Assembly (NCBI RefSeq): GCF_000974785.1
Contig: NZ_BBWV01000001.1
Coordinates: forward strand, 558,001 to 622,000
Reading direction: 5' to 3'
Length of the DNA stretch: 64,000 bases
Source of the DNA: Flavihumibacter petaseus NBRC 106054
Lineage (GTDB): Bacteria; Bacteroidota; Bacteroidia; Chitinophagales; Chitinophagaceae
Shown: piece after piece, positions 1-16,871 of the stretch
Layout of the letters: each line of letters opens with the position of its first letter
Position numbering within the stretch: position 1 is the first letter of the stretch
Program-made: the position numbers and the translations under genes
Notes under the pieces: model-generated
What the model was told of the DNA's origin: nothing
The model's input: only the letters and a program-made list of their open reading frames with translations
The model's database searches: none

Positions 1-3000
1 TTTACCCTTGCACAATTCCTGGTTCAGGCAGATGATCACGCTGATATAAGCAGGGTGGGCAACCCGCTTCCGGATGAGCACCCGGAACCCAAGCACCATG
101 AAGCAGTTGCGATCATTGGTATCAGTTGCCGTTTCCCGGGAGCAAAAGATCCTGATGCTTTCTGGGAACTCTTGCGAACAGGTACTGACGCGATCACAGC
201 CGCACCAGAAGAAAGAAAAAACATTTCCCAATGGGGAGGATTCCTGGAAAACATTGACCAGTTCGACCCTTTTTTCTTTGGCATTTCTCCCGTGGAAGCA
301 GCAGGCATGGACCCGCAGCAACGGCTGTTAATGGAACTCTCCTGGGAATTGCTGGATGATGCCAACCTGAACAAAGATGCCATAACCGGCACCGACACTG
401 GTGTATTTATCGGCATCGCATTGAACGAGTACAGCCAGCTGCAATTGGGGAACACAGATATGCTGACCAGTCATTCCGGAACAGGAAATGCCTTATCCAT
501 TGCAGCTAACCGGATCTCCTATTACTACGATCTCCATGGGCCAAGCATGGCTATTGATACCGCCTGCTCTTCTTCCCTGTCAGCCCTCCATCTGGCTTGT
601 AAAAGTCTGCGGGATGGCGAATGCAGCATGGCTATCGCTGGCGGCGTGAATATTATGCTTTCACCGGTGCATGCCATTGCTTTCACGAAAGCAGGTGTGC
701 TTTCCCCCGATGGAAGATGCAAAGCCTTTGATGCCCGGGCAAATGGTTATGTGCGGGGAGAAGGTGGCGGACTCGTTCTGTTGAAACCATTGGAGGCGGC
801 ATTAAGAGACGGCGATACGATTCATGCGGTTATCCGCGGAAGCGCCATGCGGCAGGATGGCCGGACCAACGGCCTGATGGCGCCCAGCCGTGAATCACAG
901 GAAGCGCTTCTGGTAGCAGCGTGTCAGCAAGCCGGCGTAGCGCCATCACACCTGCAATATGTCGAAACACACGGCACAGGCACCCTCCTGGGTGATGCCA
1001 TGGAAGCTGCAGCTCTAGGGGCTGTTATGGGCAGGGATCGTATTGTAGGGCCATGTATTATCGGAACTGTAAAGAGCAATATAGGTCACCTGGAAGCAGC
1101 TGCCGGCATCGCCGGACTGATCAAGGTGATCCTGTCTATGCGGCACAAAATGATCCCGGCCTCCCTGCACTACCTGTTGCCCAATCCGCATCTTGCCTTT
1201 GACACGTTGCACCTACAGGTACAGCAAATCATATCGGCCTGGCCGTTGAACGAGGGTACTGCACTGGCAGGTGTCAGCTCCTTCGGGTTTGGCGGCACAA
1301 ATGTTCATGTGATCATTTCCAAAGAATACAAAACTGAGTTGCCAGATGCTGCTGTCACTGGCAACGATACAGCAGGGGTATATTTATTACCCCTTTCATC
1401 AGGCGGGGAACAGGCACTCCGACAACTTGCTGATCAATTTCGGGTAATGCTTTCCGATAGTTCCCTGTCTGTCCGCGCGATCTGCAGCGCTGCTGCCTGG
1501 CGGCGAAGCCAGCAATTTCCCCGGATTGCCGTCATGGGGAACAACCGTGAACAAATGATCGCAGGTCTGACAGCTTTCCAGCATGGATTGCCTGATACCG
1601 GATTAACTGTTGGTGATGAGGCAGTGACCCCGAACCGCAGGCTTGCCTTTATATTTCCCGGCCAGGGAGGGCAATGGCCTGGCATGGGAAGGGAACTGTT
1701 AAGATCTTCACCAGTATTTGCCGGCAAAATCAGGGAACTGGATAGCCTGATGCAACAATACCAGGACTGGTCACTCGAAGACTATCTGCAGTGCCATATA
1801 AGTTCCCAAAATGACCAGGAGATTGACATCATTCAGCCTGCCATTTTTGCAATCCAGGTAGGTCTTGCAGCAGTATTCGGGCACTGGGGAATCACTCCGG
1901 ATGCCGTAGCAGGACACAGTATGGGCGAAGTTGCCGCTGCACAGGTTGCCGGAAAGATTAACCTTGAAGATGCTGTTCGCATTATCTGCAGGCGCAGTCA
2001 GCTGATGCGCCGCCTGCGTGGACAGGGTGGTATGCTCGCTACGGGTTTGTCCGCCGCCGAAGCAGGCAATCGTTTAAAGAAATATAACAACCTGGTTGAC
2101 ATCGCGGCATTGAACAGCCCGGAATCAACTGTGCTTACCGGAGATATTGCTGCTTTGGCGAGCCTGACGCAGACATTGCAGCAGGAACAGATTTTCTGCA
2201 AACCCGTCAATGTTGACATCGCTTCACATAGTTCACAGGTCGACGCTATCCGTACTGATTTACTTGATGCATTAAAAGAACTCCATCCTGTTACCGGCAG
2301 TTTACCACTCTACTCGACCGTTACCGGAACATTGTTGTCCGATCTGAAAATGGATGCCGTGTATTGGATGGATAATCTGCGTAAACCCGTTTTGTTCTCT
2401 TCCGCTGCATCTGCCCTGCAGGACGATGGCTACACAGATTTTATTGAGATCGGGCCACACCCCATCCTGCTGGGAGCCCTGCAACAGGTCTTTCAATCCG
2501 GTAACAGCCAACTTAACCTGTTGCCTGCACTACGCAGGGAAACCCCGGCAACAGAAGTGCTTTACGAGGTGGTTCGCAGGTTGTATACATCAGGTTATCC
2601 GGTCAGGTGGGAAGGCCTTTATCCGCAGCGGCCTCCCCTGCACCTTCCCCTAATGCCCTGGCAGCGCCAGCGGTACTGGCTGGAAGCTACGGCCCCGTTT
2701 TTGTGCAAAGAGAATCAAACAGTACACCCGTTACTGGGCGAAAGTTTGCAACCGGCAAATGCTTCCGGCACCCTGATTTGGCAAAAGGACCTTCAGGGTA
2801 ACCTGCCGTCGTGGCTGCAGGATCACCGGATTGACGGGCAGATCATTTTTCCTGCTGCTGCATTTATCGAGATGGCTTTGCAGGTCCGAAAAGAAGCGGG
2901 TCTTGCCAATAACTACCTGCCCGGGTCTTTCCGCTTTCTCAAAAAGCTGATATTGCAAAAGGGTGTCTCTACGGAAGTACAGACTATCCTTGAACCCGGA

Positions 3001-6000
3001 AAGGAAAAAGAATACCTGCTCACGATCTATAGCCGTGTTACGAGGAAAGACAAATGGATCCTTCATACCACTGCAACATTTCGCCGCCAGGCTGAAATGC
3101 CGGCTGCAGTACCATCAGTATTTGCTGCTGAAAACTGCAGCTGTATTTCCATAAAGGATTTTTACCAGCGGCTGTTCAACAGGGGGCTGGAATATGGCGA
3201 AGCCTTCCGGGGACTTTGCTCAGTGTCGCAGGACGGAAACACTATCCTTGGGCGCACAGAACTTCCCGGAAATCTGCAGCAGGAAGCTTATCAATACCAG
3301 CTTCATCCTGCATTACTGGATGCCTGTTTACAGGTGATGGCAATTCATCCTGCCATTGACAAAGGACGCTTTCTGCCGGAAGGCTGCGACAGCGTACAAA
3401 TACACGCAGCTCCCGCCGGACTGCTGTACTGCCGGGTTCCGATCACCGCCAAACAGCCGGTTGATCAAATCACGGAAAACATTTACCTGTACAGTAGTGA
3501 TCTTATGCCGGTGGCCACTATAAAAGGGTTCCGGCTGCATCGTGTTGCAGAAGATCATCACAGCGGTAGCGAACAGCGCACCTGGCAGTACCACCAGGAA
3601 TGGCAGTTACAGGATGAGGAACCCGGCGCGAAATTGCTAACGGGTAATCACCGTTGGCTGATCCTTGCCGATGAAGGCGGATTGGCCGTATCAACAGCAG
3701 CACAACTGGAAGCTGCGGGTAACACTGTAACGGTTATTTACAGCAATGACAGGAATGCCCTAACTAGTTTGTGGCAGGAATGCCAGCGTACTGACCCATT
3801 GTACGGTGTCATACACCTGTGGAGTCTTTCTATCCCGTCGCAATCAGACGCGCAGGAATATGCCACAGAGCGTCAGTACGACCTGGGCGTGAACAGCGTT
3901 CTATCGCTCGTTCAATTGCTTTCGCAACGTCCGGGCGCATCACCGCGATTATGGCTGGTCACAAGGGGTGCACAATGCACTGCGCCAGGTGAGCAGGTAT
4001 CAGTTGAGCAGGCAGCACTATGGGGTCTCGGAAAGGTGATCAGTTTTGAATTTCCCGACCTGCAATGCATACGCATCGATCTCGATGGACAATTACAGAA
4101 TGGCCAGGAAGCAGCAATCCTGTTGCGGCACCTGATGATGACCGGTAAAGAGGACCAGCTGGCATTCCGGAAAGGGAAACGATTTGTACTTCGCCTCGTG
4201 CCCCATCAGTCCACACAACAAGAACCTCCGGCTTTGCAGTTCCGCGAAGAAGCAACTTACCTGATCACGGGAGGTATGGGTGCGCTCGGATTATGCATGG
4301 CAAACTGGATGGTGGATCATGGTGCCCGATACCTGGTGTTGATGGGAAGGAGCGAACCGACGGATGCGGTTTTAACCAATACGGAACGCTTGAAGGAACG
4401 TGGTGTATCGGTGGTGCTGGCGCAGGCAGATGTTAGCGATGGGCAACAGGTTGAAGCCTTGTTCGCACGAATGGAGGAAGCGCTTCCACCATTGCGCGGC
4501 GTAATTCATGCCGCCGGCCTGCTGGATGACGGCGCATTACTCAACCTTGATGCCACGAGGATGAGAAAAGTAATGGCGCCCAAGGTAGAAGGCACCCTTC
4601 ACCTGCACCAGGCAACGCAACATCTCCAGCTGGATTTTTTTGTATTGTTTTCTTCCGTAGTGTCTTTACTGGGCGCTCCTGGTCAGGGAAATTATGCGGC
4701 GGCCAGCGCCAGCCTCGATGCCATGGCCAATTATCGCCGAAGCAGGGGTTTGCCTGCCGTCAGTATCAACTGGGGGCCCTGGGCAGATGTGGGACTTGCG
4801 GCGGCGGCCACGCACAAGCTTATTGAAAAACAGGCTCCGGTGCAGCATCTTATTAAAGTGATCGGGATCGAAGACGGTCTTTCGATATTGTCGCAACTGC
4901 TGTATGCATCCGTACCACAGGTGGCTGTGCTTCCTTTTGACGTAAAAAATCTCCTGGAGCTCTATCCTGCCGCTGCCCACATTCCGTATTTTACCGCGAT
5001 ACAAAATCATCATCCGGTTACCGGAAGGCATTATAACCGCCCCCGCCTCCGGCAGGCCTATATCGCCCCGGAAACCACAATGGAACATCAACTCGCCGCC
5101 CTTTGGCAGCAAACGCTTCACATTGACTGCATTGGGGTGCTTGATTCATTTTTTGAACTGGGCGGAGACTCCGTGCTTGCAGCTCAACTTTTATCGCGTG
5201 CCCAGCAGTCCTTCGGCACCAGGATCGACCCCCAGGAAGCATTTCAATCGTTTACCATCAGGCATCTGGCAGCAAAACTTGAATCCGCCCTGATCAGCAA
5301 TGCAAAGAAAGCTGCCCAACCAACGATTCCTCCCCGTTCTCCGGGGATGACAGTTCCGCTTTCATTTCCTCAGAAAAGGCTGCTCTTCCTGGAACTGCTT
5401 GAACCGGGCACAAGCATCAATAACTTATCTGCCTTTTATGAACTGCATGGAGACCTAGATACAGATGCGTTGCATTTCAGTGTCAACCAGGTGCTGCAGC
5501 GCCATGATGCCCTGCGAACAAAATTTTTGTTTCCTCAGGGTATGCCGGTACCTGCCTGGCAGGAAAAGTTATCCCTTTCAATCCCTGTAATACCACTGAC
5601 ACATCTATCCGGTACAGAGGCATTGTCCACTGCAAAAAAAATGGCAGCAAAAGAAGTCCGCCTGCCTTTCAACCTGCAGGATGCTCCATTGATACGGCTC
5701 AGGCTATATTCATTGACTGAACAAAGCCATTGCCTCCTGGTTGTAGTGCACCACGCTATCGCTGATGGCTGGTCACTGGGCGTCTTCCTGAAGGAACTGA
5801 TGTATTATTATGAGCATTTCCAGAACGGCAGTCAAACCGGGTTACCTGACCTTCCATTGCAATATGCCGACTATGCTGCCTGGCTTCAGCAGGAACACCA
5901 GGGAAAGGAACATCCGTCGACGCAATACTGGAAACAAAAGCTGTCCGGAAACCTGCCGCTCCTTGAACTACCTACTGATTTTACCAGGGGAGCACGGCAA

Positions 6001-8556
6001 AGTTATAACGGTGCCAGTCATCATTTTACATTGGAGCGTAATACGGTTAAAGCAATTGAACAGGTTGCAGGTGCATCGTCTGCTACTCCATTCATGGTAA
6101 TGCTCAGTGCATATGCCATGTTGCTTCACCGCTACAGCGGACAGGAAGAAATCATCATCGGAACACCGGTAGCCAATCGCAACCTGCCGGAACTGGAAAA
6201 CCTGATTGGCGTCCTGATCAATAGTCTTCCATTGCGCATACAGTTGCCTGAGGCAATTACTTTTGAAATGTTGCTGGTGCAGGTCCGCACGACTTGCCTG
6301 GAGGCCCTGGCACACCAGGACTATCCTTTTGAAAAAATAGTGGAGACCGTTCAGCCTGACAGAGACCTTAGCCGCTCCCCTGTTTACCAGACAATCTTTA
6401 ATCTGCAAAATGTTCCTGTTCCCGAGATGAACCTTCCAGGTCTGGCTATTACACCATTGGATGTTGACGGTGATGTTGCACAGTTTGATTTGTCGTTTAT
6501 GGTTATTCCTTCCGCGGGCGATTGGCGTTGCCAGGTGACATTTAATACGGATCTGTTCGCACCGGCTACGATCACTGCGATGTTCAGCTCTTACATCCGG
6601 TTGCTGGAATCGGCCCTGGCGGAACCAACACAGCAGGTATCAAAACTGCCGCTGCTGGATGAAGACACTTATCAGTTCCTGGTTAACGAACTGAATGATA
6701 CGGCAGAGGTTTACCCGGACGCCGCCTGCCTGCACGGGCTATTTGAAGCACAAGTGCTTCGGACACCGGATGCCATTGCCGTGAAAGACTCCTGCGAAAC
6801 GCTGAGCTATGCGGAGCTCAACAGACGTGCTGAACGCCTGGCAGCACAGCTTTGTGCATGCGGTGCCGGACCGGAATTCCGGATCGGCATACACCTTGAA
6901 AAATCTGTTTCCCTGGTTGTGGCCTTGCTGGGAACGCATAAAGCGGGAGGAGCCTATCTGCCCATCGCCCCCTCATTGCCGCAAGAAAGGAAAGCATTTA
7001 TGATCAGGGATGCAGCATTGCAACTGTTGCTGACGGAAAGTGATGGTGTTCCCCTTGAATCCGCCGGCCTGCCCATATTGTATTTACAGCGCGGCGGAAG
7101 AACAGCGGAACAGGTCAGTTCCATGACCGCCACAAAGGCGACGCAGGACAATCTCGCATACATCCTGTATACATCGGGATCGACCGGCCTTCCCAAAGGA
7201 GTGATGATCACCCATGCTGCATTGACCAATTTCATACAGTCGATGCAACGGCGACCGGGGATCTGCAGCCATGATGTATTGTTATCCGTAACGCCGATCT
7301 CATTCGATATCATGGCACTTGAAATTTTTCTTCCGCTGGTGACAGGGGCAACCGTAATACTGGTGGAGAAAGAAACTGCAACACAATCATTACTGCTTGC
7401 AGAAGCAATCGAACGGCATGGTGTCACGTTGATGCAGGCAACACCAGCTACCTGGCAATTGCTCCTTGATTCCGGATGGAAAGGAGCACCTGCTTTGACA
7501 GCGCTTTGTGGCGGTGATGTACTGACCCGAAAACTGGCAGATCGGCTGCTTGATAAAGTTGCACAGCTATGGAATCTCTACGGGCCAACTGAAACCACCA
7601 TCTGGAGTTCACTGACAACAGTAAAAAGAGACAGCGCACCAATCACCATCGGGCAGCCCATCGCCAATACACAATTGTATGTACTTGATGCTTTGGGGCA
7701 ACCGCTGCCGGCCGGCGTGATCGGAGAATTGCATATCGGCGGCAAGGGTCTGGCGCGCGGCTATTGCGGGCAACCCGCACTGACAACAGCGAAGTTCGTG
7801 AGTCGCTCCTTTAATCATTTGCCACCCACCGCGTCTGTCCGGCTTTATAAAACGGGTGATCGTGCCCGTTACCTTGCCGATGGCAGTATTGAGCTGATCG
7901 GACGCTGGGATGACCAGGTGAAAATCAATGGTCACCGGGTTGAACCGGCAGAAGCCAATGCCCAACTGCTTCAGCATCCGGAGGTGCGCGATGCGGTTAC
8001 TATTGTGGAGGCGTTGCCTTCCGGGGAAAAGCGACTGATTGCATACCTTGTAACGGACTATCAAAACCGGGATTGGGCTTCCTGGCTAAGGAGCAGACTG
8101 CCCGCCTATATGATACCGGCTATTTTTATTCCACTGGAAACTTTGCCGCTGACACCCAACGGAAAAATCAATCGCGCAGCTCTGCCTTTGGCTGCAACGC
8201 AACTCCGGCAACCCGGTTATGCTGCACCTGTTGGCATTATAGAAAACCAACTTGCAGGAATCTGGGAAAATGTTTTACTCACTGCGCCGGTTGGCAGGCA
8301 TGACAATTTCTTTTCACTTGGCGGCGCTTCTATGCAAAGCCTGCAGGCCGTTGCGCATGCGAACGCAGCAGGCATCGCCCTTCAGCCTGCTGATCTTTTC
8401 GAATACCAGACTATTGCGGAACTGGCCGCACATCTTGAGAAGTCGTCACCTGTTGGCACGAACCACGAGTATAACGAGAAGGCTGAGTATGGCTGCGAAA
8501 AAACACCAGACAGAAATGAGGTAGCTCGTGAAGAAGAAATACGTCATGATCAATGA
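1..8556 (+). CDS. Hybrid polyketide synthase-nonribosomal peptide synthetase (5' end outside window)
   Basis: Modular megasynthase, probably cytosolic, building a natural product on carrier-bound thioesters. The frame is open from base 1. A GTG at 55 could start it, but the codons before it read FTLAQFLVQ, like the end of a carrier domain, so the gene begins to the left. Domains, by base position of key residues: KS (Cys 565, His 970, His 1087); AT (GHSMG Ser 1918; IASH at 2218-2229, extender uncertain); DH (HxxxGxxxxP from 2824, Asp 3319); KR (TGGMGALG from 4267, LDD at 4522-4530 suggesting B type, Ser 4654, Tyr 4693); carrier Ser 5170; condensation HHAIADG from 5749; adenylation TSGSTGLPKG from 7171, glycine-like code; PCP LGGASM, Ser 8329. 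No ER, methyltransferase, thioesterase or reductase domain follows. A short charged tail ends the protein, so release happens in trans or on another protein. The end overlaps the next gene, on the other strand, by 111 bases. Confidence 0.95.
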   Translation, partial: FTLAQFLVQADDHADISRVGNPLPDEHPEPKHHEAVAIIGISCRFPGAKDPDAFWELLRTGTDAITAAPEERKNISQWGGFLENIDQFDPFFFGISPVEAAGMDPQQRLLMELSWELLDDANLNKDAITGTDTGVFIGIALNEYSQLQLGNTDMLTSHSGTGNALSIAANRISYYYDLHGPSMAIDTACSSSLSALHLACKSLRDGECSMAIAGGVNIMLSPVHAIAFTKAGVLSPDGRCKAFDARANGYVRGEGGGLVLLKPLEAALRDGDTIHAVIRGSAMRQDGRTNGLMAPSRESQEALLVAACQQAGVAPSHLQYVETHGTGTLLGDAMEAAALGAVMGRDRIVGPCIIGTVKSNIGHLEAAAGIAGLIKVILSMRHKMIPASLHYLLPNPHLAFDTLHLQVQQIISAWPLNEGTALAGVSSFGFGGTNVHVIISKEYKTELPDAAVTGNDTAGVYLLPLSSGGEQALRQLADQFRVMLSDSSLSVRAICSAAAWRRSQQFPRIAVMGNNREQMIAGLTAFQHGLPDTGLTVGDEAVTPNRRLAFIFPGQGGQWPGMGRELLRSSPVFAGKIRELDSLMQQYQDWSLEDYLQCHISSQNDQEIDIIQPAIFAIQVGLAAVFGHWGITPDAVAGHSMGEVAAAQVAGKINLEDAVRIICRRSQLMRRLRGQGGMLATGLSAAEAGNRLKKYNNLVDIAALNSPESTVLTGDIAALASLTQTLQQEQIFCKPVNVDIASHSSQVDAIRTDLLDALKELHPVTGSLPLYSTVTGTLLSDLKMDAVYWMDNLRKPVLFSSAASALQDDGYTDFIEIGPHPILLGALQQVFQSGNSQLNLLPALRRETPATEVLYEVVRRLYTSGYPVRWEGLYPQRPPLHLPLMPWQRQRYWLEATAPFLCKENQTVHPLLGESLQPANASGTLIWQKDLQGNLPSWLQDHRIDGQIIFPAAAFIEMALQVRKEAGLANNYLPGSFRFLKKLILQKGVSTEVQTILEPGKEKEYLLTIYSRVTRKDKWILHTTATFRRQAEMPAAVPSVFAAENCSCISIKDFYQRLFNRGLEYGEAFRGLCSVSQDGNTILGRTELPGNLQQEAYQYQLHPALLDACLQVMAIHPAIDKGRFLPEGCDSVQIHAAPAGLLYCRVPITAKQPVDQITENIYLYSSDLMPVATIKGFRLHRVAEDHHSGSEQRTWQYHQEWQLQDEEPGAKLLTGNHRWLILADEGGLAVSTAAQLEAAGNTVTVIYSNDRNALTSLWQECQRTDPLYGVIHLWSLSIPSQSDAQEYATERQYDLGVNSVLSLVQLLSQRPGASPRLWLVTRGAQCTAPGEQVSVEQAALWGLGKVISFEFPDLQCIRIDLDGQLQNGQEAAILLRHLMMTGKEDQLAFRKGKRFVLRLVPHQSTQQEPPALQFREEATYLITGGMGALGLCMANWMVDHGARYLVLMGRSEPTDAVLTNTERLKERGVSVVLAQADVSDGQQVEALFARMEEALPPLRGVIHAAGLLDDGALLNLDATRMRKVMAPKVEGTLHLHQATQHLQLDFFVLFSSVVSLLGAPGQGNYAAASASLDAMANYRRSRGLPAVSINWGPWADVGLAAAATHKLIEKQAPVQHLIKVIGIEDGLSILSQLLYASVPQVAVLPFDVKNLLELYPAAAHIPYFTAIQNHHPVTGRHYNRPRLRQAYIAPETTMEHQLAALWQQTLHIDCIGVLDSFFELGGDSVLAAQLLSRAQQSFGTRIDPQEAFQSFTIRHLAAKLESALISNAKKAAQPTIPPRSPGMTVPLSFPQKRLLFLELLEPGTSINNLSAFYELHGDLDTDALHFSVNQVLQRHDALRTKFLFPQGMPVPAWQEKLSLSIPVIPLTHLSGTEALSTAKKMAAKEVRLPFNLQDAPLIRLRLYSLTEQSHCLLVVVHHAIADGWSLGVFLKELMYYYEHFQNGSQTGLPDLPLQYADYAAWLQQEHQGKEHPSTQYWKQKLSGNLPLLELPTDFTRGARQSYNGASHHFTLERNTVKAIEQVAGASSATPFMVMLSAYAMLLHRYSGQEEIIIGTPVANRNLPELENLIGVLINSLPLRIQLPEAITFEMLLVQVRTTCLEALAHQDYPFEKIVETVQPDRDLSRSPVYQTIFNLQNVPVPEMNLPGLAITPLDVDGDVAQFDLSFMVIPSAGDWRCQVTFNTDLFAPATITAMFSSYIRLLESALAEPTQQVSKLPLLDEDTYQFLVNELNDTAEVYPDAACLHGLFEAQVLRTPDAIAVKDSCETLSYAELNRRAERLAAQLCACGAGPEFRIGIHLEKSVSLVVALLGTHKAGGAYLPIAPSLPQERKAFMIRDAALQLLLTESDGVPLESAGLPILYLQRGGRTAEQVSSMTATKATQDNLAYILYTSGSTGLPKGVMITHAALTNFIQSMQRRPGICSHDVLLSVTPISFDIMALEIFLPLVTGATVILVEKETATQSLLLAEAIERHGVTLMQATPATWQLLLDSGWKGAPALTALCGGDVLTRKLADRLLDKVAQLWNLYGPTETTIWSSLTTVKRDSAPITIGQPIANTQLYVLDALGQPLPAGVIGELHIGGKGLARGYCGQPALTTAKFVSRSFNHLPPTASVRLYKTGDRARYLADGSIELIGRWDDQVKINGHRVEPAEANAQLLQHPEVRDAVTIVEALPSGEKRLIAYLVTDYQNRDWASWLRSRLPAYMIPAIFIPLETLPLTPNGKINRAALPLAATQLRQPGYAAPVGIIENQLAGIWENVLLTAPVGRHDNFFSLGGASMQSLQAVAHANAAGIALQPADLFEYQTIAELAAHLEKSSPVGTNHEYNEKAEYGCEKTPDRNEVAREEEIRHDQ

Positions 8557-9075
8557 CAAAAGCATGGCTGCAGCCAGGAGCTTGCTGTACCGCAACGTGG
8601 ATAGAAACGGAGAGATGGCAATTGTAATAAAGTTTAAGGGGCGCATGATGGTGAGGTGTGGAAATGCGCGGTAATAACGGATATGGCCGTGTTCTGCCAC
8701 CGCCCGGATAGGATAGCTGATCAGGCAATAAAACATGTACAGGGCTGAAGCGATGCCGAGTATCAAGAACCAGGAGATCAGTTTTTTCCTCTTTTCATCC
8801 GGTTCCATCAGCCACATCGTTAACGGCGCCCATACAGGCCAGATGGGTTGCGAGATAAAGGAATATCCATATAGTGCCGGCTTATACCAGGAAGTAAAAT
8901 CCGGGTCGGTGAGTGAGAGCCAGATCATACCTTCCGCTGCCTGATGAAAACTGAACAGCAGGGGTGTGCAGGCGAAGAGGAGCATTCCCCGATTTCTGGC
9001 CTGGCTGATGGAAAAATATCCCGGTGCCACCAGACTGGCACTTACGGCAAAACTTGCTCCGGCAGAAAAACACAT
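8446..9075 (-). CDS. DUF6629-type integral membrane protein
   Basis: A 209-residue protein that starts with MCFSAGASF, the N-terminal signature of DUF6629 proteins, and consists almost entirely of hydrophobic segments (about six or seven membrane helices). Function of the family is unknown. It lies 15 bases downstream of oleD on the same strand and is probably the last gene of that transcript. Its final 37 codons lie antisense to the end of the PKS-NRPS gene, an unusually long convergent overlap. The strong N-terminal family motif and hydrophobic pattern support a real gene rather than a shadow. No catalytic motif was seen. Confidence 0.8.
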   Translation of the reverse strand: MCFSAGASFAVSASLVAPGYFSISQARNRGMLLFACTPLLFSFHQAAEGMIWLSLTDPDFTSWYKPALYGYSFISQPIWPVWAPLTMWLMEPDEKRKKLISWFLILGIASALYMFYCLISYPIRAVAEHGHIRYYRAFPHLTIMRPLNFITIAISPFLSTLRYSKLLAAAMLLSLIMTYFFFTSYLISVWCFFAAILSLLVILVVRANR

Positions 9076-9090
9076 AACTGAAAGTTTAGG

Positions 9091-10104
9091 TTATGAACTG
9101 AAACGTGCATACTGGCCTGACGCTACCCACATGCGCAATCTTTCCATTCCCTGCTCGATTGAAATGTCAGGCGAATAACCAAAATCTCTTTTTGCAGCAG
9201 TGATATCAAACCAGTGTGCAGTAGATAATTGCTGGGCGACAAAATAACTAACCGGAGGCTCTCCATTTAATTTCAGCGCGCGGTAAAGGCGTTCCAGGGT
9301 CTTTGCCGAAAATCTGACCAATCCAGCAGGCAGGTGTCGTGTAACCGGTGCGCAGCCTCCTGAAGCCAGCAGCATATTCATGAGGCTGGTCACGGGGATA
9401 GGGCTTTCCTGGGAAATGAAATAGGTTTTTCCTGCAAGCTGTTCAGGATGCTTCAGCAACCGATCAAATGCCCTGATATGCGCCATTGCGGCATTATCGA
9501 TATAGGTACAGTCCACCAGTTTTGGGGCATTTCCCAAAATGCACAAACTGCCGCCTTGCGAGCGTTTTATCAGTGCCGGCAAATAATGCGTATCGCCTGG
9601 TCCCCAGATAAGGTGTGGCCGCAGGCTGACCGTTCTCAGGGATGCGCTGTTTGCTGCCATTACCAGTTGTTCAGCAAGGGCCTTGGTTTTTGGGTACCAT
9701 GCCGAATACTTTTTGGGATAGGGAAGACTTTCATCGCCACCTTCAAGATCTTTACCGTCAAATACCACACTGGGTGAGCTGGTAAAAACAAGGTTCTTTA
9801 TACCATATTGCCTGCAGGCGCGCAAAACCTGTTCTGTGCCCCACACATTGGTCTGGTAAAAGTCGCGGTAATGGCCACTGGTACCGGTTCTGGCGGCAAC
9901 ATGAAAAATTCCGTCACAACCTGCAGCCGCTTTGCTGAGCCTGGAATAATCGGCGATATCCCCCTGCATCTGGAGGGCTCCGGTATCTCCCAGTTCAGGG
10001 TAATGATTACGGGTATATGAAATAACGTCGTGCCCGGCGGTGCGCAGTTGCTTTACAATAGCACTTCCGAGAAATCCGCCGCCACCGGTTACCAGCAGTT
10101 TCAT
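9091..10104 (-). CDS. oleD: OleD-like NAD(P)-dependent 2-alkyl-3-oxoalkanoate reductase
   Basis: Extended short-chain dehydrogenase of 337 residues. OleD reduces the 2-alkyl-3-ketoacid made by OleA to the beta-hydroxy acid used by OleC. The Rossmann motif GGGGFLG is at residues 7-13, a TSSPSVVF serine segment near 108-115, and the YxxxK pair is Tyr137/Lys141. Overall similarity is to the OleD/3-beta-HSD branch of NAD-dependent epimerases. The start overlaps the stop of oleC by 4 bases (ATGA), showing translational coupling. Adjacency to oleC and oleB makes OleD much more likely than a generic epimerase. The natural substrate here is not certain because no oleA is present nearby. Confidence 0.87.
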   Translation of the reverse strand: MKLLVTGGGGFLGSAIVKQLRTAGHDVISYTRNHYPELGDTGALQMQGDIADYSRLSKAAAGCDGIFHVAARTGTSGHYRDFYQTNVWGTEQVLRACRQYGIKNLVFTSSPSVVFDGKDLEGGDESLPYPKKYSAWYPKTKALAEQLVMAANSASLRTVSLRPHLIWGPGDTHYLPALIKRSQGGSLCILGNAPKLVDCTYIDNAAMAHIRAFDRLLKHPEQLAGKTYFISQESPIPVTSLMNMLLASGGCAPVTRHLPAGLVRFSAKTLERLYRALKLNGEPPVSYFVAQQLSTAHWFDITAAKRDFGYSPDISIEQGMERLRMWVASGQYARFSS

Positions 10105-11747
10105 GCCATTTCATTTTTAGCCCATTCCGCCAGCTGCTCACGAATGATCTTCGCATTGTGCCGGAAATCCACCGGAAAGCCTGGGTGAAACAATAATGTT
10201 TTGATCTGATCCGTATCCGGATATGCCGCTGCCCATTGCAGCAGTTCAATTCTGAGTTGTGCTTCCTGTTTTTTTTCGATATTCTTCTCCGCTTCCACAC
10301 AAAGCACAGCCTCGCCGCCCACTTCCACGAGCGCTGACCTGAACACACCGGGATGTTTGTTAAAAATGCCTTCCACTGGAACTGAATACAGCTCGCGGCC
10401 ACCCGTTCTCACACGATGTGCCTTGCGGCCGCAGAACCAGAGTTTCAGTTCTTCATCAAAATAACCGAGGTCTCCCATCCGGTGCCAGCATTGGTTTCCA
10501 TCGGGTATTTTAGCCAGGCTGGTTTCCTCCGTCCGGTTATAATAAAGCCGGGTAACAGCAGCACCCGTTACAATGATCTCTCCTATTCTGCCAGGTGGTA
10601 GTTTCAGCTCATCCGACCATTGCGGAATTGCTTTGTCGCTGATCGGAATGATGGCTATCGTTATTCCATTCACTGCTTTGCCCAGGCAAATGCCGTGACC
10701 CGTATCCGTGAGTTTCTGCGTTTCTTTCAGCAGTTGGTTACTGGCGATAATGGTCACCGGCATCGCCTCCGTTGCGCCATAAGGTGTAAAGATCTGAACC
10801 TCCGGGTTTAACAGGGAGGAAAACCTTGACAAGGCTTTTACAGAAGCCGGTGCACCGGCAGAAATCACTCGCTTCAATGTTGGCAACCGGATGCCATGAC
10901 TGGTGGCATAGCGGCCGACGGCATCGATCAGCGCCGGAGACCCAAACATGTTGGTGATGCCCCACTGGCAGATCGGTCCGGTAATTTTTTGGGGGGCGAC
11001 CTGTGCAGGTTTCGTGAAATCCATATCAGGCAGAACGCTGGTCATTCCGAGTGCGGGATTGAACAGCGCAAAAGGTGCAAACGTAGGCATGTCAATTTCA
11101 CCCGGAACAAAATCAAAAGTGTGCCGTATGCTGTCCAGCTGTGCCCGGAAATTTCCGTGCGAATAACAAACACCTTTGGGCAACCCCGTGGATCCGCTGG
11201 TGAAAATGATTGCTGCCGGATCATCGGGCAATGCATCAAAAAACGGTCCCGGCCCTGCGGAGCGGTCTGCATTCCTGACGGACCGCAAGCTTTTTCCTGC
11301 CCAGCGCCAACGCCCACCCACCGTTATGCTGCGACGGATCGTTTTGCGACCCCAACCAAGGGCAACCCGCGCAAGTTGCGCTTTCTGCACCCCGATAAAA
11401 CCAACCGGAGCAACTTCATCGATGCATGTCTTCAGGTTCCTGCGACCGATCCCGGGATCGATGTATACAGGCACAATTCCCGAAAACAGCATGGCAAAAC
11501 TCAGTACGAAAAAGTCTGCTCCCGGGGGTACCATCATTACCACGCGGTCACCTCGTTCATATCCTGAGGCAAGCAGCCCGCGGGCGACACAAACTGTTTC
11601 GCGGGCAAGTTCCCGGAACGAGAGCCTGCTATATTGTGTTATACCATTACCGTCCATACTGTCTGGCACGGGAAAAGCGATGGCGATAGTATCAGGCTGC
11701 CGTTCTGCCATTTCGATCACTGCGGCAGCAATGTTGAATGGCTTCAT
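10101..11747 (-). CDS. oleC: OleC-like beta-lactone synthetase (AMP-forming ANL enzyme)
   Basis: ANL-superfamily protein of 548 residues. OleC adenylates a 2-alkyl-3-hydroxy acid and closes it to a beta-lactone. The P-loop TSGSTGLPKG is at residues 183-192. OleC-type features are the IDPGIGRRNL stretch near 96-105, the ALGWG segment near 129-133 followed by a GGRWRW stretch, and YGATEAMP in place of the usual YGxTE core. Overlaps of 4 bases link it to oleB upstream and oleD downstream. It is a free-standing enzyme with no carrier domain. A fatty acyl-CoA ligase is the alternative call, but the ole context and the motifs favour OleC. Confidence 0.88.
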   Translation of the reverse strand: MKPFNIAAAVIEMAERQPDTIAIAFPVPDSMDGNGITQYSRLSFRELARETVCVARGLLASGYERGDRVVMMVPPGADFFVLSFAMLFSGIVPVYIDPGIGRRNLKTCIDEVAPVGFIGVQKAQLARVALGWGRKTIRRSITVGGRWRWAGKSLRSVRNADRSAGPGPFFDALPDDPAAIIFTSGSTGLPKGVCYSHGNFRAQLDSIRHTFDFVPGEIDMPTFAPFALFNPALGMTSVLPDMDFTKPAQVAPQKITGPICQWGITNMFGSPALIDAVGRYATSHGIRLPTLKRVISAGAPASVKALSRFSSLLNPEVQIFTPYGATEAMPVTIIASNQLLKETQKLTDTGHGICLGKAVNGITIAIIPISDKAIPQWSDELKLPPGRIGEIIVTGAAVTRLYYNRTEETSLAKIPDGNQCWHRMGDLGYFDEELKLWFCGRKAHRVRTGGRELYSVPVEGIFNKHPGVFRSALVEVGGEAVLCVEAEKNIEKKQEAQLRIELLQWAAAYPDTDQIKTLLFHPGFPVDFRHNAKIIREQLAEWAKNEMA

Positions 11748-12625
11748 GCTGTATTGAAAAAATCGGTTATCAGGTCTCCTATTGCTTGCTGCTGATCTTC
11801 GAGTATATAATGACCTGAATCTTCAAATTCATGAACCTGCGCGTTGGGGAGATAACTTTTCCACGCCTGGAGGATCGTCCTGTCAAAAACCCGGTCTTTC
11901 ATACCCCAGGCAATCAGGACAGGCGTATTCCTGAATTGCGGCAAACTTTGCTGTACAGCGGTGATGGTATCATAACCACGATCTCCCGGGCGCAGCGGCA
12001 CATCCTGGATGAACCGTAGCGTGGCGATCCGGTTCTTCCAGGAATTATAGGGAGCGGTAAATCCCTTCCGCACAGCACGGGAAAGACTGACGCGCTTAAC
12101 CCCTTCGATGGTTGCCAGTCCGCTGAAAGCGTTGAAAGCGCGGATGAAAAATGCGCCCGGCCAGCTCCTGAAAAAATGCAGCATCAGTGGAAATCTTTTC
12201 CCTTCCGGCAAATGAAATGCGGCGGTATTCAGCAATACAATTTTTTTGATCGCTTCCGGGTGACGGTGCGCATATACCATCCCGATGATCCCACCCCAGT
12301 CGTGCATCACCAGGTGAATGTTGCCGGTAATATGTTTCTCCTGAAGAAATGTTTCAAGGTCGCGCACACGTTGCTCGAGTGTGTACTGGTAATGCTCATC
12401 ACCGGGTTTATCCGAATAGCCGCAACCGATATGGTCCGGTGCAAGGCAACGATACTGGTGTGACAGGCGGCAGATCAGTTGCCGGTAATAAAAGGACCAG
12501 GTAGGATTACCGTGAAGCAATACCACCGGATCACCGCTTCCTTCTTCCACATAGTGGTAACGGTGCCCGTTAATGCGGGCAAAATGACTGGCAAAGGGGT
12601 ATAGTTCCTGGTTAACCAAATTCAT
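11744..12625 (-). CDS. oleB: OleB-like beta-lactone decarboxylase (alpha/beta hydrolase)
   Basis: Alpha/beta hydrolase of the haloalkane dehalogenase-like group, 293 residues. OleB converts beta-lactones to cis-olefins with loss of carbon dioxide. The oxyanion-hole segment HGNPTWSF is near residues 38-45; the nucleophile is Asp109 in the HDWGG motif, with the neighbouring Trp110 typical of this group; Asp244 in GMKDR is a candidate acid; His272 in DSGHYILED is the base. The ATG follows the stop of the diiron gene with no gap, and the end overlaps oleC by 4 bases. In some bacteria oleB is fused to oleC; here they are separate. A haloalkane dehalogenase is the alternative, disfavoured by the operon. 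Confidence 0.87.
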   Translation of the reverse strand: MNLVNQELYPFASHFARINGHRYHYVEEGSGDPVVLLHGNPTWSFYYRQLICRLSHQYRCLAPDHIGCGYSDKPGDEHYQYTLEQRVRDLETFLQEKHITGNIHLVMHDWGGIIGMVYAHRHPEAIKKIVLLNTAAFHLPEGKRFPLMLHFFRSWPGAFFIRAFNAFSGLATIEGVKRVSLSRAVRKGFTAPYNSWKNRIATLRFIQDVPLRPGDRGYDTITAVQQSLPQFRNTPVLIAWGMKDRVFDRTILQAWKSYLPNAQVHEFEDSGHYILEDQQQAIGDLITDFFNTA

Positions 12626-14062
12626 TTATTGACGTCCTATGATCAGCATCATTTCTTCCGGTGTAACGTACATGCCTATGCGGGTCAGCTGCTGGCTGAG
12701 TCTGCCGGTGATGTGGCGGTACAACACATCCGATCCGACGCCGAAAGCACGGAAAGCCTGTATCAGGTGATGATCGTCTGTCTTGTCGCCATATACTGAC
12801 TTCATCAGGACTTTCAGTGCTACTTTATTCCGCAATTTTTCCCATCTTTTACCCCGACGGAAAAGTTCATTGTACATCGCCACGCACAGGTCCATATGCC
12901 GGGTCTCGTCCTGTTCAGAAATAGTGCGGCTGATGCTGCAGAAAAGTTTGTCCGGCATGTATTTTTCGTTACCGAAGAATTCCAGGTAAGCAGCGCCGAT
13001 AGCTTCTACGATTACCGCCAGGAAAAGCCCCGTACCCGGCATAAAACGTGCCAGCCACATGTACCGTTTTGCGCCTTTGATCAGTTTTGCCGCGATGAAT
13101 TCCTTAGCCTGCAGCTTCTCCACCAGGAACCTGCGGAAAGTAGCGGAATGTTTGGCTTCATCATTGATAAAAGTGGTCATCGCTTCCTGGATCTCGCGAT
13201 ATCTCCGGTAATGAATGATGCCCATGGTCAAAGGTGCAATGGCGCTCTGTTCCACTACCAGGGCGTGATTGGCGATGTCGCGTAAGCCCCTGAGTTGTCG
13301 CTGCAATACCAGGTCCTGCAATTGCCTTAGTTCAGGATGGGCCTCCGGGATCCTTCCGGTGACCAGCGTTTGTTGCACCAGCATCAGCATCTCTTGCAGG
13401 TCGTGCAGTACATAAGGAAGAATTACAGTAAGGTCCGATCGGATTTCGCCTGATAACTGCTGCAAATGGTGGCTCACATTTCCGTTATAGCGGTGCAGGG
13501 CATCTGTCACTTCCTTCAGATGACCGGAAATTTCGACCAACGCAACTTCCTGCTCCTGCCGCTCCTCCGCCGAGCGGATGAGTTGCACCGTTGTGCCTCT
13601 CCGGATATATCCCAGACGTTGGTGTTCCTGCAATACCAGCCGTTCGTCATTCAGTAATTCCTGGCGGTCGCGCAGCTGCTGCACTTCTTTCTGCAAGCGC
13701 GAAAAAGGAGCAAGCAACTCCAGGGCTTTCCCGATGGAAGGCGTGTTTTCAGGAAGGCATTCTGCAAGGGCTTTAAGGGCATCTTCTTTTATGGGAATCC
13801 CTTCTGCCCTGAGTCGCCGGATACTGCCATCGATATTCTCTGCCACCATGGGCAGCACCAGCATGAAAATATGTTTACGGCCTGCCGGTTCCAGCTGTTC
13901 GAGGTGAATTTTCAGGTTATACCGGACATCCTGCTGCCAGTCAAATTTGGTCTCGCGGTTCCAGTATTTCTGTTCTGCGTCCCGGGTGTATTGCGTAAAA
14001 TCCTGCGTAGGCGTGATATAGTAATCAGGCCGGCCTTTATCTGCAGTTTTGGTGAGGGACAT
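12626..14062 (-). CDS. Ferritin-like diiron protein, possible AurF-type oxygenase
   Basis: A 478-residue protein with a four-helix-bundle diiron ligand pattern in its C-terminal half: Glu271, then Glu302-x-x-His305, Glu353, and Glu386-x-x-His389. The 31 and 33 residue spacings fit carboxylate-bridged diiron oxidases. An N-terminal YWNRETKFDW segment recalls the opening of AurF-type N-oxygenases, but the extra His four residues before the last ExxH in AurF is absent (Ser382). Residues about 120-230 look like long helices or coiled coil. The stop codon touches the oleB start, so it is co-translated with oleBCD and probably oxidises the substrate or product of that pathway. The exact reaction (hydroxylation, desaturation or N-oxidation) cannot be read from the sequence. 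Confidence 0.75.
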   Translation of the reverse strand: MSLTKTADKGRPDYYITPTQDFTQYTRDAEQKYWNRETKFDWQQDVRYNLKIHLEQLEPAGRKHIFMLVLPMVAENIDGSIRRLRAEGIPIKEDALKALAECLPENTPSIGKALELLAPFSRLQKEVQQLRDRQELLNDERLVLQEHQRLGYIRRGTTVQLIRSAEERQEQEVALVEISGHLKEVTDALHRYNGNVSHHLQQLSGEIRSDLTVILPYVLHDLQEMLMLVQQTLVTGRIPEAHPELRQLQDLVLQRQLRGLRDIANHALVVEQSAIAPLTMGIIHYRRYREIQEAMTTFINDEAKHSATFRRFLVEKLQAKEFIAAKLIKGAKRYMWLARFMPGTGLFLAVIVEAIGAAYLEFFGNEKYMPDKLFCSISRTISEQDETRHMDLCVAMYNELFRRGKRWEKLRNKVALKVLMKSVYGDKTDDHHLIQAFRAFGVGSDVLYRHITGRLSQQLTRIGMYVTPEEMMLIIGRQ

Positions 14063-14128: not shown

Positions 14129-15235
14129 TCAGCTGGCTGCCTGTTTTCTGTTGTATTGCCAATGGCTGATATAGCGTTCAAATCTGTCCGTTACCAACTG
14201 AAGTTCGTCAGGCGGCATTTCATGTTTGAGGCGAACAAAGTTCTGCTGCAGGTCTGCGAATTGCTGCATTTGTTTTTCGCAATGACTAAAGTCATCCAGG
14301 CCCAACTGCCTGTAAATAGCGCGCATGGTATCGACGGGTTCGCGAACGAGGTTATCATAGGGAATTTCCACCAGTTGCCCGGAAGGTACCAGTGATTTTT
14401 CCTCAAGGTAGCGGTCCATCATGCGGCTATAGGTATCCAGGATGACCTGGTTGACGCCCATCTCCGGGATACGTCCCAAGGCGTATATGCGGTGCGTAAC
14501 CTTCCAGAATCTTTTGTTGGAGAGATAGACATCCACAGGGTGGCGGTGGATGAAAATGAATTTCGCATTTGGAAAAAGGGAAAGGAGCAGTTTGATACGG
14601 GCAGTGTTCGGCGGACTTTTCAACACGAGTTGCCTGCCTTTTCCGGAAAGTGATATCTTTTTAAGCAGGAAAAGAAAATCCTTTGTCCATGCCTGTTGCT
14701 CTGTTTCGGTAACATCATCAAACAGCACATACCTGTTGAAATGATCCTTCATTTTTTCGGGAAAGAAATAACCCCATTGGGCGCCCCTGGGATTCACAGC
14801 GGTAGTCATGGTTCCATCTTCTTCTCCGGGATAACGGAAAGACATGGGGATACGATGAACCGGGTCCTGCAGGCGGAAAATCCGGCAGATACCTTCGAGC
14901 AAAGGAGAAAGCCATTTTTCTGTGGTGAGCATGATCTCCGGGAAGATCATCTGGAAAACAGAATGATAGCGGAGGCGCTGATCCTGGGAAATAAATTCAT
15001 GCAGAAATGAAGTGCCGCTCCGATAGAAGCCAAGTACAAATATGGGGTCGCGGGTGATGGTATGCTGTTCGATCTTCCTGCGGAAGAAGGCTATTTCGAT
15101 CCACCGGAAGGGTTCCAGCAGGATGGTTTTGATCAGCCATCCCGGCAGGTTTTTAATGCCGGTCCGAGCAATACCGCCGTGTTCCCGGGTGATCCGCAGG
15201 AAGGTAAAGAAAGGCAGCGGGAAGAGCCTGTTCAT
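14129..15235 (-). CDS. PAPS-dependent sulfotransferase family protein
   Basis: Sulfotransferase-fold protein (Sulfotransfer_3 type), 368 residues from the ATG at 15235. An upstream TTG or GTG-type start at 15289 would overlap the preceding gene and is less likely. The 5'-phosphosulfate loop GFYRSGTSFLH is near residues 69-79, and the 3'-phosphate site FIHRHPVDVYLSN near 228-240 includes Arg231 and Ser239. These proteins transfer a sulfuryl group from PAPS to a hydroxyl. It lies 66 bases before the diiron-oleBCD genes on the same strand. In curacin-type pathways a sulfotransferase activates a beta-hydroxyl for decarboxylative alkene formation, which would suit this context, but that link is inference. 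Confidence 0.8.
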   Translation of the reverse strand: MNRLFPLPFFTFLRITREHGGIARTGIKNLPGWLIKTILLEPFRWIEIAFFRRKIEQHTITRDPIFVLGFYRSGTSFLHEFISQDQRLRYHSVFQMIFPEIMLTTEKWLSPLLEGICRIFRLQDPVHRIPMSFRYPGEEDGTMTTAVNPRGAQWGYFFPEKMKDHFNRYVLFDDVTETEQQAWTKDFLFLLKKISLSGKGRQLVLKSPPNTARIKLLLSLFPNAKFIFIHRHPVDVYLSNKRFWKVTHRIYALGRIPEMGVNQVILDTYSRMMDRYLEEKSLVPSGQLVEIPYDNLVREPVDTMRAIYRQLGLDDFSHCEKQMQQFADLQQNFVRLKHEMPPDELQLVTDRFERYISHWQYNRKQAAS

Positions 15236-15245
15236 GCCGTATGTT

Positions 15246-15602
15246 TTAAACCGGCTCGCCGAAGGTGAGCAGGTTATTGTCAGGATCAAGCAAAGAGAAC
15301 TCCTTTAACCCCCAGGGCTTCGATTGCAATGGCGCGTTGGGATGGATGGCTATGTTGCGGTCGAGCAATTCGTTGTAAAAAGCTTCAATACCTTTTACAC
15401 GGATATATACCTGTCCATAATTCTCCTGTGGATCAAGTTCAGCAAAGTGGAAGAAATGGATCTCTATATTTTCCTTCTGAAGTATGAGATAGTCAGGATA
15501 GTCTGCTGCGCCGGCATCGGTGAATTGAAGCTGGTCCACGTAGTAAGCCTTCGTGGTCGCCTTATTGCGCATCGGCAGCTTGGGATGAACAGACTGCAGC
15601 AT
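15246..15602 (-). CDS. VOC (glyoxalase/bleomycin-resistance) family protein
   Basis: Small 118-residue VOC-fold protein. A beta-alpha-beta-beta-beta pattern is visible, with IEIHFFHF and GQVYIRV strands and the family-typical C-terminal DPDNNLLTFGE stretch carrying the last metal-ligand glutamate position. Members of this family bind antibiotics such as bleomycin or act as metal-dependent lyases or dioxygenases; this one resembles the bleomycin-resistance subgroup. It is the first gene of the minus-strand group that continues 10 bases later with the sulfotransferase. A self-protection role for the pathway is possible but is inference from position. Confidence 0.8.
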   Translation of the reverse strand: MLQSVHPKLPMRNKATTKAYYVDQLQFTDAGAADYPDYLILQKENIEIHFFHFAELDPQENYGQVYIRVKGIEAFYNELLDRNIAIHPNAPLQSKPWGLKEFSLLDPDNNLLTFGEPV

Positions 15603-15632
15603 GACGCTAATTTACAAAAAAAGGAGTTTGAA

Positions 15633-15690
15633 GTTTGGAGTTTGGACTTAGCCCACCGAAGCTTCAGCGTCGGTGGGGGTTTGGAGTTTG
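15633..15690. repeat. REP-like palindrome flanked by 12-base direct repeats
   Basis: An 8-base perfect stem, CCCACCGA at 15652-15659 and TCGGTGGG at 15670-15677, encloses a 10-base inner part that can extend the stem. Two copies of GTTTGGAGTTTG, at 15633-15644 and 15679-15690, flank it. It sits between two divergently transcribed genes, so it is not a simple terminator. The architecture suggests a dispersed repeat. Confidence 0.6.
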
Positions 15691-15719
15691 TTCCTTTTCT
15701 TTGCTCCCCAACGAAATTT

Positions 15720-16871
15720 ATGACCCCTGCCTATTCAACATTTAAGGACACCAGGCAACACTACGAAATTCTGGATGGATTGCGCGGAATTGCGGCGATC
15801 CTGGTGGTGATGTTCCACCTCCTGGAAACCTTTGCCCTTGGTAATCACGAGAAACAGCTGATCAATCATGGCTACCTGGCGGTTGATTTTTTCTTCCTGC
15901 TTTCCGGTTTCGTGATGGGCTATGCGTATGACGAAAGATGGGACCGCATGAGCATGGCTGATTTCTGCAAACGCCGCCTGATCCGTTTGCATCCCATGAT
16001 CATTGTCGGTTCGGTGATCGGGGCATTTTTATTTTATTTCCAGGATAGTCCGGCTTTCCCGGGCATTCATGATATACCGGTAGGGACCTTACTGCTTACC
16101 ATGGTGATCGGCTTTACCCTTATTCCGGTACCGCCCTCGATGGATATCAGGGGCTGGGCAGAAATGCACCCGCTGAATGGGCCGGCCTGGTCCTTATTCT
16201 TTGAATACATCGCCAATATCCTGTATGCCGTTGTGCTTCGCCATTGTAACAGGATCATACTGTCGATACTGACTGCGGTGGCCGCAGCTGCGCTCATCCA
16301 CCTGGCTGTAACGAGTGCGCAGGGAGATGTGATCGGTGGATGGTCTGTTGACCCCGTTCAGCTGAGGATCGGGTTTACGCGGCTTTTATACCCCTTCCTG
16401 GCGGGCCTGCTGCTATCCAGGGTAACAAAGCCAGGGAATATTAAAAATGCCTTCCTGTGGAGCGGCTTGCTCCTGGTGGTTATGCTGTCGATGCCCCGGA
16501 TAGGCAACAGTGATCAGCACTGGTTGAACGGTCTTTACGATTCCCTGTCGATAGTGCTGATATTCCCGGTGGTGGTTTATTTAGGCGCCAGCGGCAGTGT
16601 CGAAGGCCGGCTTTCAGGTGTCAACCGCTTTTTGGGCAGAATTTCCTATCCACTCTATATCATTCATTATCCATTTATCTACACATTCGTCGCCTGGGTA
16701 TCAAAGTACAACATAACCCCTACGATGGAATCGCCAGGGTCGCTGATCACCTGTGCTGCCGTAGCTGCCGGTATCCTGGCTGTCAATATTACGCTGGCAT
16801 GGCTCCTGGTGAAGTATTATGATGAGCCGGTGCGGAAGTGGTTGACAGGAAGGTTTTTTAAAAGTTTATGA
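15720..16871 (+). CDS. Acyltransferase family 3 (OafA-type) membrane protein
   Basis: Inner-membrane O-acyltransferase of 383 residues from the ATG at 15720; the frame is open further upstream through the repeat region, but that part has no protein-like character. The family opening EILDGLRGIAAILVVMFH contains the conserved LDGLRGIAA core and catalytic-type His, followed by DFFFLLSGFVMG. About ten hydrophobic helices follow to the end. Such enzymes move acetyl or other acyl groups to sugars, peptides or lipids at the membrane. It is transcribed away from the ole group and has no obvious partner, so the acceptor is unknown. Confidence 0.88.
   Translation: MTPAYSTFKDTRQHYEILDGLRGIAAILVVMFHLLETFALGNHEKQLINHGYLAVDFFFLLSGFVMGYAYDERWDRMSMADFCKRRLIRLHPMIIVGSVIGAFLFYFQDSPAFPGIHDIPVGTLLLTMVIGFTLIPVPPSMDIRGWAEMHPLNGPAWSLFFEYIANILYAVVLRHCNRIILSILTAVAAAALIHLAVTSAQGDVIGGWSVDPVQLRIGFTRLLYPFLAGLLLSRVTKPGNIKNAFLWSGLLLVVMLSMPRIGNSDQHWLNGLYDSLSIVLIFPVVVYLGASGSVEGRLSGVNRFLGRISYPLYIIHYPFIYTFVAWVSKYNITPTMESPGSLITCAAVAAGILAVNITLAWLLVKYYDEPVRKWLTGRFFKSL

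Follow-up and report, generated by a model that had tools for sequence, protein, structure and literature searches.

A Bacteroidota gene cluster that combines oleBCD-type genes, a fused tandem KSIII and a PKS-NRPS with no release domain

Organization of the cluster in Flavihumibacter petaseus

The window analyzed here is a 64,000-nucleotide stretch of the Flavihumibacter petaseus NBRC 106054 genome (contig NZ_BBWV01000001.1, positions 558,001 to 622,000), and our subject is a gene cluster at its left end in which oleB-, oleC- and oleD-like genes lie beside a hybrid polyketide synthase-nonribosomal peptide synthetase (PKS-NRPS) gene. On the minus strand, a gene for a 478-residue diiron protein (12626–14062) is followed by an oleB-like gene for an alpha/beta hydrolase (11744–12625), oleC (10101–11747) and an oleD-like gene (9091–10104). 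The initial annotation described these genes as a tight operon facing the PKS-NRPS gene, and the gene coordinates agree: neighboring genes either overlap by 4 bases or abut, and translational coupling is therefore plausible. The PKS-NRPS gene, recognized by a family scan, is on the plus strand and fills window positions 1–8556, with its start at genome position 557797, 204 bases left of the window. A sulfotransferase gene of the Pfam family Sulfotransfer_3 (minus strand, 14129–15289, with the ATG at 15235 as the likelier start), which the initial annotation of the operon did not include, adjoins its upstream side.

The cluster continues to the left of the window. Plus-strand genes for a fatty acyl-AMP ligase (FAAL; genome 554767–556485) and a luciferase-like monooxygenase (LLM; 556482–557792) lead into the PKS-NRPS gene. 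Farther left are minus-strand genes for a cytochrome P450 (551306–552673) and an Sfp-type phosphopantetheinyl transferase (PPTase; 550609–551319), and a plus-strand gene for an adenosine 5′-phosphosulfate (APS) kinase (550109–550660). The operon had been thought to lack an oleA gene. That view did not survive inspection of this region: between the P450 and PPTase genes and the FAAL gene, 3.3–5.3 kb left of the window, a minus-strand gene (552683–554698) encodes a 671-residue protein in which two 3-oxoacyl synthase III (KSIII) domains of the OleA/LstAB type are fused in tandem.

Identity of the OleB, OleC and OleD proteins

In family scans the oleD product was a short-chain dehydrogenase/reductase (SDR) resembling 2-alkyl-3-oxoacid reductases; NF042422 was the best of the families listed (388 bits, equivalog cut-off 580). 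From its sequence the protein would work like OleD, though it is not filed as an equivalog. OleC is an AMP-binding protein that scored 690 bits against NF006754 (cut-off 478), 611 bits against the Xanthomonas olefin β-lactone synthetase model (cut-off 900) and 584 bits against the Shewanella model (cut-off 850). OleB enzymes belong to the haloalkane dehalogenase-like family and use an Asp nucleophile and a His. The oleB product is an alpha/beta hydrolase of this kind with Asp109 and His272 kept in all 10 copies, and its family matches and conserved residues make it a probable β-lactone decarboxylase. Three haloalkane dehalogenase models stayed under their cut-offs for this protein, and no OleB model was present among the 25 listed of its 26 NCBIfam matches. 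Because OleB keeps its Asp and His throughout, we favor an alkene over a β-lactone as the end product. Thus, where the initial annotation had left the choice between a β-lactone and an olefin, the olefin side gained and the β-lactone lost ground.

A fused LstA/LstB-type condensing enzyme

The first half of the tandem KSIII carries the motifs DITNACAGM, MHQTS and RGNTAS, which hold Cys123, His262 and Asn299. In the second half the Cys is replaced by Ala (2 copies) or Ser (9 copies), and the His and Asn motifs are gone. A Glu-Pro pair is kept in both halves, and in the alignment E98-P, C123, H262, N299 and E434-P were invariant in 11 of 11 copies. A profile of the central segment of the second half, built from five sequences, matched 13 PDB sequences at an E-value of 0.01 or better. 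Twelve of these are named 3-oxoacyl-(ACP) synthase III or 3-oxoacyl-synthase III (E-values of 4.8e-7 to 1.6e-5) and presumably represent Xanthomonas enzymes of the OleA type, some of them mutants, with 3row and 4ku3 as examples; the remaining match was a FabH-type chain (E-value 0.003). With the whole second half as query, FabH chains ranked on top and OleA-type chains appeared from rank 13; CorB matched this half with an E-value of 5.5e-4. Residue E434 aligned with residue 117 of 4ku3, and Glu117-Pro is reported as an OleA signature (PMC7064751). The OleA-type Glu acts from the partner subunit; in the fused protein E434 sits in the degenerate half and the triad in the first half. A similar division is reported for lipstatin synthase, in which LstA holds the triad and an E60A substitution in LstB makes LstAB inactive (PMC12141560). 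The fold of the fused protein was predicted with three sequences, but at a pLDDT of 42.5 the model was too poor to use.

The closest KSIII pairs on plasmids were found in a tblastn search of 72,556 plasmid records with the fused protein. Although 175 records matched, all were below 60% identity, and in 10 of them one place covered at least 80% of the query. According to annotated features, the 12 best matches listed were adjacent KSIII pairs. Five of these loci were inspected, and in four (Streptomyces NBC_00536, Streptomyces NBC_01006, S. globosus and Rhodococcus qingshengii) the KSIII-type pair precedes genes for an OleC-like ligase, an SDR and an NRPS, an arrangement of the lipstatin type. 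The NBC_00536 operon continues with a formyltransferase gene, which matches the lipstatin order, lstA-lstB-lstC-lstD-NRPS-formyltransferase. The fifth locus, on the Rhodococcus DK17 plasmid pDK1 (L108:5923–7885), has an LstA/LstB-like KSIII pair, and 6 kb of annotation to either side show neither OleC nor OleD nor an NRPS.

In a 36-row tree whose LstA- and LstB-like rows are relatives named by context, rather than proven S. toxytricini proteins, the 11 second halves grouped with five LstB-like proteins (support 99/98). The first halves formed one group (99/97) with LstA-like proteins nearby but not within a shared clade. Together, the halves and the LstA/LstB-like rows separated from FabH, DarB and one OleA-like protein with support of 96/96. 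The residues, the PDB profile, the plasmid operons and the position of the second halves in the tree, taken together, lead us to assign the protein as a fused LstA/LstB-type condensing enzyme, a sequence-based assignment that is well supported. We call it an OleA counterpart and not OleA because it is a 671-residue fusion of two unlike domains; OleA proper is a single KSIII that forms a homodimer.

A search of the F. petaseus genome with PF08541 at an E-value of 0.001, a threshold that a divergent OleA could escape, gave six places in five proteins and no stand-alone OleA. Two places are the halves of the fused KSIII. The other proteins are two FabH proteins, a DarB (dialkylresorcinol) synthase, which at 557 bits clears the cut-off of 550, and a type III PKS-like protein, which scored 141 bits against DpgA and stays below the cut-off of 425, and we therefore rejected a canonical oleA elsewhere in the genome. 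The presumed lack of OleA thus held for a stand-alone enzyme, but the left part of the cluster supplies its counterpart. The family NF006720, in which OleA is filed, had a match in every one of 296 genomes of the phylum and none over its cut-off; most matches were FabH-like by length alone, and a second genome with a tandem KSIII (G210) surfaced among them.

The PKS-NRPS assembly line

The single PKS-NRPS gene of 2919 codons encodes KS-AT-DH-KR-ACP-C-A-PCP domains and a short tail, and by eye the bases left of the window seem to encode a further carrier domain at the N terminus. Motifs of active KS, AT, DH, KR, C and A domains and of the two later carrier domains are all present. As first described, the last module has no release domain: the domain scan found neither a thioesterase (TE) nor a reductase (R) domain after the final PCP. 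Alkene formation by a sulfotransferase-TE pair of the curacin type was set aside, since there is no TE here.

The A domain probably selects glycine, a call that rests on its pocket residues. Eight of the ten code positions could be read in 9 of 12 clusters, with Gramella deviating at the second position, and the fourth and last positions were read in the window protein alone; the glycine code used for comparison is DILQLG(M/L)(I/V)WK. The A domain also matched solved NRPS structures, without pointing to one amino acid. The PKS and NRPS parts form a single gene in F. petaseus and two overlapping genes in genomes G011 and G013. The NRPS part had its own frame in all eight relatives for which an NRPS frame was listed.

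These features bear on the initial proposal that the PKS-NRPS itself feeds a β-hydroxy or β-keto acid to OleC and OleB in place of OleA. The missing release domain and the KR of the PKS module would fit such a role. Because a C-A-PCP module follows the PKS, however, the chain should end in an amino acid and not in a β-keto or β-hydroxy acid, and a fused OleA counterpart sits in the cluster in all 11 genomes in which that part is visible. We consider this proposal very improbable.

Conservation of the cluster in Bacteroidota

We compared the cluster in 12 Bacteroidota genomes, one of them on two contigs, from Flavihumibacter, Ferruginibacter, Lewinella, Algoriphagus, Roseivirga and others. The PKS-NRPS and the sulfotransferase were present in 12 of 12 clusters, and the fused KSIII, P450, FAAL and LLM in 11 of 11; the YHN15 stretch ends before this part. 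The diiron protein was found in 11 of 12 genomes, a frequency biased upward because 9 of the 12 clusters were found or refound with this protein as bait. OleB, OleC and OleD were each encoded in 10 of 12, the APS kinase in 8 of 12 and a PPTase in 9 clusters, with a weaker PPTase in G210 and none recognized in Roseivirga. Gene order and orientation were reshuffled between genomes. The initial annotation had linked OleBCD and the diiron protein to the PKS-NRPS from position in one genome. This link is thereby strengthened, as 10 of the 12 genomes have all of them despite the shuffled order.

Wider searches returned few further loci. Among 99 genomes around that of F. petaseus, the diiron protein was present in three, F. 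petaseus itself, Flavihumibacter stibioxidans and F. profundi. When 84,980 species genomes were scanned with this protein, nine loci emerged, all in Bacteroidota. Eight of them hold a PKS-NRPS within the flank, and the ninth is a 6.3-kb contig with the diiron gene, oleB, oleC, a sulfotransferase and an APS kinase. When eight of the nine diiron-locus genomes and G210 were searched, oleC was found in 8 and the fused KSIII in all 9. Counting F. petaseus, the fused KSIII was encoded in 2 of 395 genomes of the phylum and 5 of 394 of the family, which confirmed G210 and added G657, a genome of the same family as F. petaseus. OleC proteins of at least 50% identity were limited to F. petaseus and G210 among 390 genomes of the phylum, with four others at 31–37%. 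Next to the relative at 37%, in G076, is a hydrolase 25% like OleB, and no other cluster proteins were found near it within the 20 kb taken.

Conservation also bears on the idea that OleBCD and the fused KSIII make an ordinary membrane hydrocarbon and are mere neighbors of the PKS-NRPS cluster. The OleB, OleC and OleD proteins are 43, 39 and 46% identical to those of an oleBCD-like locus of Nonomuraea, as compared with 33–37% (main pieces) for OleC and OleD against the four lipstatin-type operons, a point in favor of this idea. Their joint presence with the PKS-NRPS in 10 of 12 genomes, whose gene order is shuffled, argues otherwise. So does the finding that the two phylum genomes with OleC at 50% identity or more are the same two with the fused KSIII, although the samples of 390 and 395 genomes, drawn alike, were possibly not identical. 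Moreover, the clusters that lack OleBCD still pair the KSIII with the PKS-NRPS, from which we conclude that the KSIII belongs to the assembly line. A separate hydrocarbon pathway thus seems improbable.

Proposed pathway

We propose that the assembly line and an ole/lst-type pathway act in series, with the KSIII releasing the chain and OleD, OleC and OleB making the alkene, and on the sequence evidence we give this scheme slightly better than even chances. The KSIII would be the release enzyme because no TE or R domain follows the final PCP of the NRPS. We infer the substrates, the product and the role of the diiron protein as follows. FAAL would load a fatty acid onto the N-terminal carrier, the PKS module would add two carbons to give a 2,3-unsaturated or 3-hydroxy chain, and the NRPS module would add an amino acid, probably glycine. 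The fused KSIII would then take the N-acyl-aminoacyl chain, probably N-acylglycyl, from the PCP and couple this chain with a second acyl thioester in a non-decarboxylative Claisen condensation, yielding a 2-substituted 3-oxoacid. OleD would reduce this acid, OleC would close the β-lactone and OleB would expel CO2 to leave an internal alkene. The type of product would depend on the glycine unit: with its carbonyl as donor an allylic amide would result, and with its alpha carbon as nucleophile an enamide. The P450, the luciferase-like monooxygenase, the diiron protein and the sulfotransferase/APS kinase pair would finish the product; sulfation is likely, judging from the latter two proteins. Where OleBCD is absent, as in two clusters, spontaneous loss of CO2 from the 3-oxoacid would give a ketone. 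The fully specified version, in which an LstAB-type fusion couples an N-acyl-aminoacyl chain from the NRPS carrier to a second chain, the Ole enzymes install the double bond of enamide or allylic-amide sulfolipids and the diiron protein represents a new oxygenase family so far seen with the cluster only, is tentative, and we put it at somewhat below an even chance.

Several observations weigh against the proposed series. The order in which the enzymes are used, with the KSIII working after the NRPS, is not fixed by the sequence, and the operon and the PKS-NRPS gene are on opposite strands. Two of the 12 clusters, those of Gramella jeungdoensis and G657, have no OleBCD; the Gramella genome had no OleC at an E-value of 1e-30, and in G657 (95% complete, 180 contigs), where no diiron protein was found either, OleC gave short partial matches to other adenylating proteins alone. 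Over its whole length, the first half of the fused KSIII scored higher against FabH structures, at 71 bits, than against 3row, at 44 bits. In a comparison run without a known OleA as positive control, the fused protein scored 197 bits against NF006720 and its first half 125, missing the cut-off of 285; a lipstatin-type KSIII, at 129 bits, was likewise under it. The OleC scores on the Xanthomonas and Shewanella models and the OleD score were below the equivalog cut-offs. In the tree, first halves and LstA-like rows do not fall into one clade, and the tool flagged that long branches meet. The glycine call was made by reading pocket residues by eye against a code table. Finally, the N-terminal part of a lipstatin-type NRPS has an HxxxDG-like motif by eye, and the contrast with the canonical C domain of the window is therefore a matter of degree.

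That last point concerns a convergent alternative closer to lipstatin, in which the KSIII joins two acyl-CoAs, OleD, OleC and possibly OleB process the resulting lipid, and an N-acyl-glycine made separately by the PKS-NRPS is esterified to a hydroxyl of the lipid. Its basis is that four of the five opened operons near the closest KSIII pairs are of the lipstatin type and include an NRPS, and that the one such NRPS scanned shows no TE; two acyl-CoAs are also the reported substrates of LstAB (PMC12141560). That NRPS resembles the window NRPS over the A-PCP part only, however. Its first 510 residues had neither a Pfam hit, including one to Condensation, nor meaningful blastp similarity, whereas the window protein has a canonical C domain fed by the PKS. 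Furthermore, no separate ester-forming enzyme was recognized among the conserved genes, and an active OleB would destroy the β-lactone. Release by the KSIII is the reading we retain, and we regard the esterification route as unlikely.

Comparison with known systems

The cluster shares with the lst operons for lipstatin, a lipase inhibitor, a KSIII made up of two parts, of which one carries Cys-His-Asn and the other Glu, an OleC-like ligase, an OleD-like SDR and an NRPS. It differs in that the KSIII parts are fused, in having OleB and a PKS-NRPS with a canonical C domain, in its Bacteroidota hosts, and in its added FAAL, luciferase-like monooxygenase, P450, diiron protein and sulfotransferase; no formyltransferase was recognized among the cluster genes scanned, which sets it apart from the lst gene set. 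Like the OleABCD pathway for long-chain olefins in Xanthomonas and Shewanella, it combines the three proteins OleB, OleC and OleD with a thiolase-type enzyme that bears the Glu-Pro motif. In contrast to those systems, the enzyme is a fused, half-degenerate KSIII inside a PKS-NRPS cluster, and no stand-alone OleA was found. CorB/MxnB and PpyS are KSIII-like chain-joining enzymes of PKS pathways that end an assembly line by forming a C-C bond, as proposed here; they yield pyrones, whereas the fused KSIII is instead neighbored by OleD, OleC and OleB.

Most of the enzyme types in the cluster are known. Literature searches listed no paper whose title or abstract connects a PKS-NRPS with OleBCD or with a fused LstAB, and the combination, the KSIII fusion and the conserved cluster were likewise absent from the titles and abstracts listed. 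If the proposed series is correct, hydrocarbon-type Ole chemistry serves as a release and tailoring step of a PKS-NRPS, and the cluster may make an alkene-type lipid, possibly sulfated, not known before. A single-chain LstA/LstB version should also ease study of the two-subunit mechanism, and the natural OleBCD-free variants in Gramella jeungdoensis and the one genome of the F. petaseus family allow products to be compared.

The diiron protein and adjacent genes

The diiron protein has a long helical N-terminal region and a ferritin-like C-terminal domain. Residues E271, E302xxH305, E353 and E386xxH389, the likely ligands, were invariant in 11 of 11 aligned sequences, and in the predicted fold this E, ExxH, E, ExxH pattern lies on the four-helix core of a ferritin-like diiron protein. 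The invariant ligand set and the predicted fold bear out the ferritin-like diiron identity given initially. There was no Pfam match over cut-off (the best, E-value 0.016, looked unrelated), and family and PDB sequence searches gave nothing useful and no convincing match. Compared with the fold of aldehyde-deformylating oxygenase (ADO) and ribonucleotide reductase R2, the protein has a long extra N-terminal helical region. The best Foldseek E-value was 0.034, and because ADO and R2 proteins tied in a second look at the fold search, we claim no reaction for it. Added oxidation by the diiron protein, the P450 and the luciferase-like monooxygenase is plausible, although its position in the pathway cannot be placed. 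Were the proposed series correct, the diiron protein would be tied to one pathway. In the OleBCD-free cluster of Gramella, a flavin-binding monooxygenase-like gene (L091:14115–15473) lies beside the diiron gene.

Two other genes border the cluster in the window. A minus-strand gene for a DUF6629 protein (8446–9075) is convergent with the PKS-NRPS gene and overlaps its final 111 bases; this family was present in 7 of 12 clusters. An acyltransferase gene (Acyl_transf_3, 15324–16871), divergent from the sulfotransferase gene, was not recognized in the other 11 clusters.

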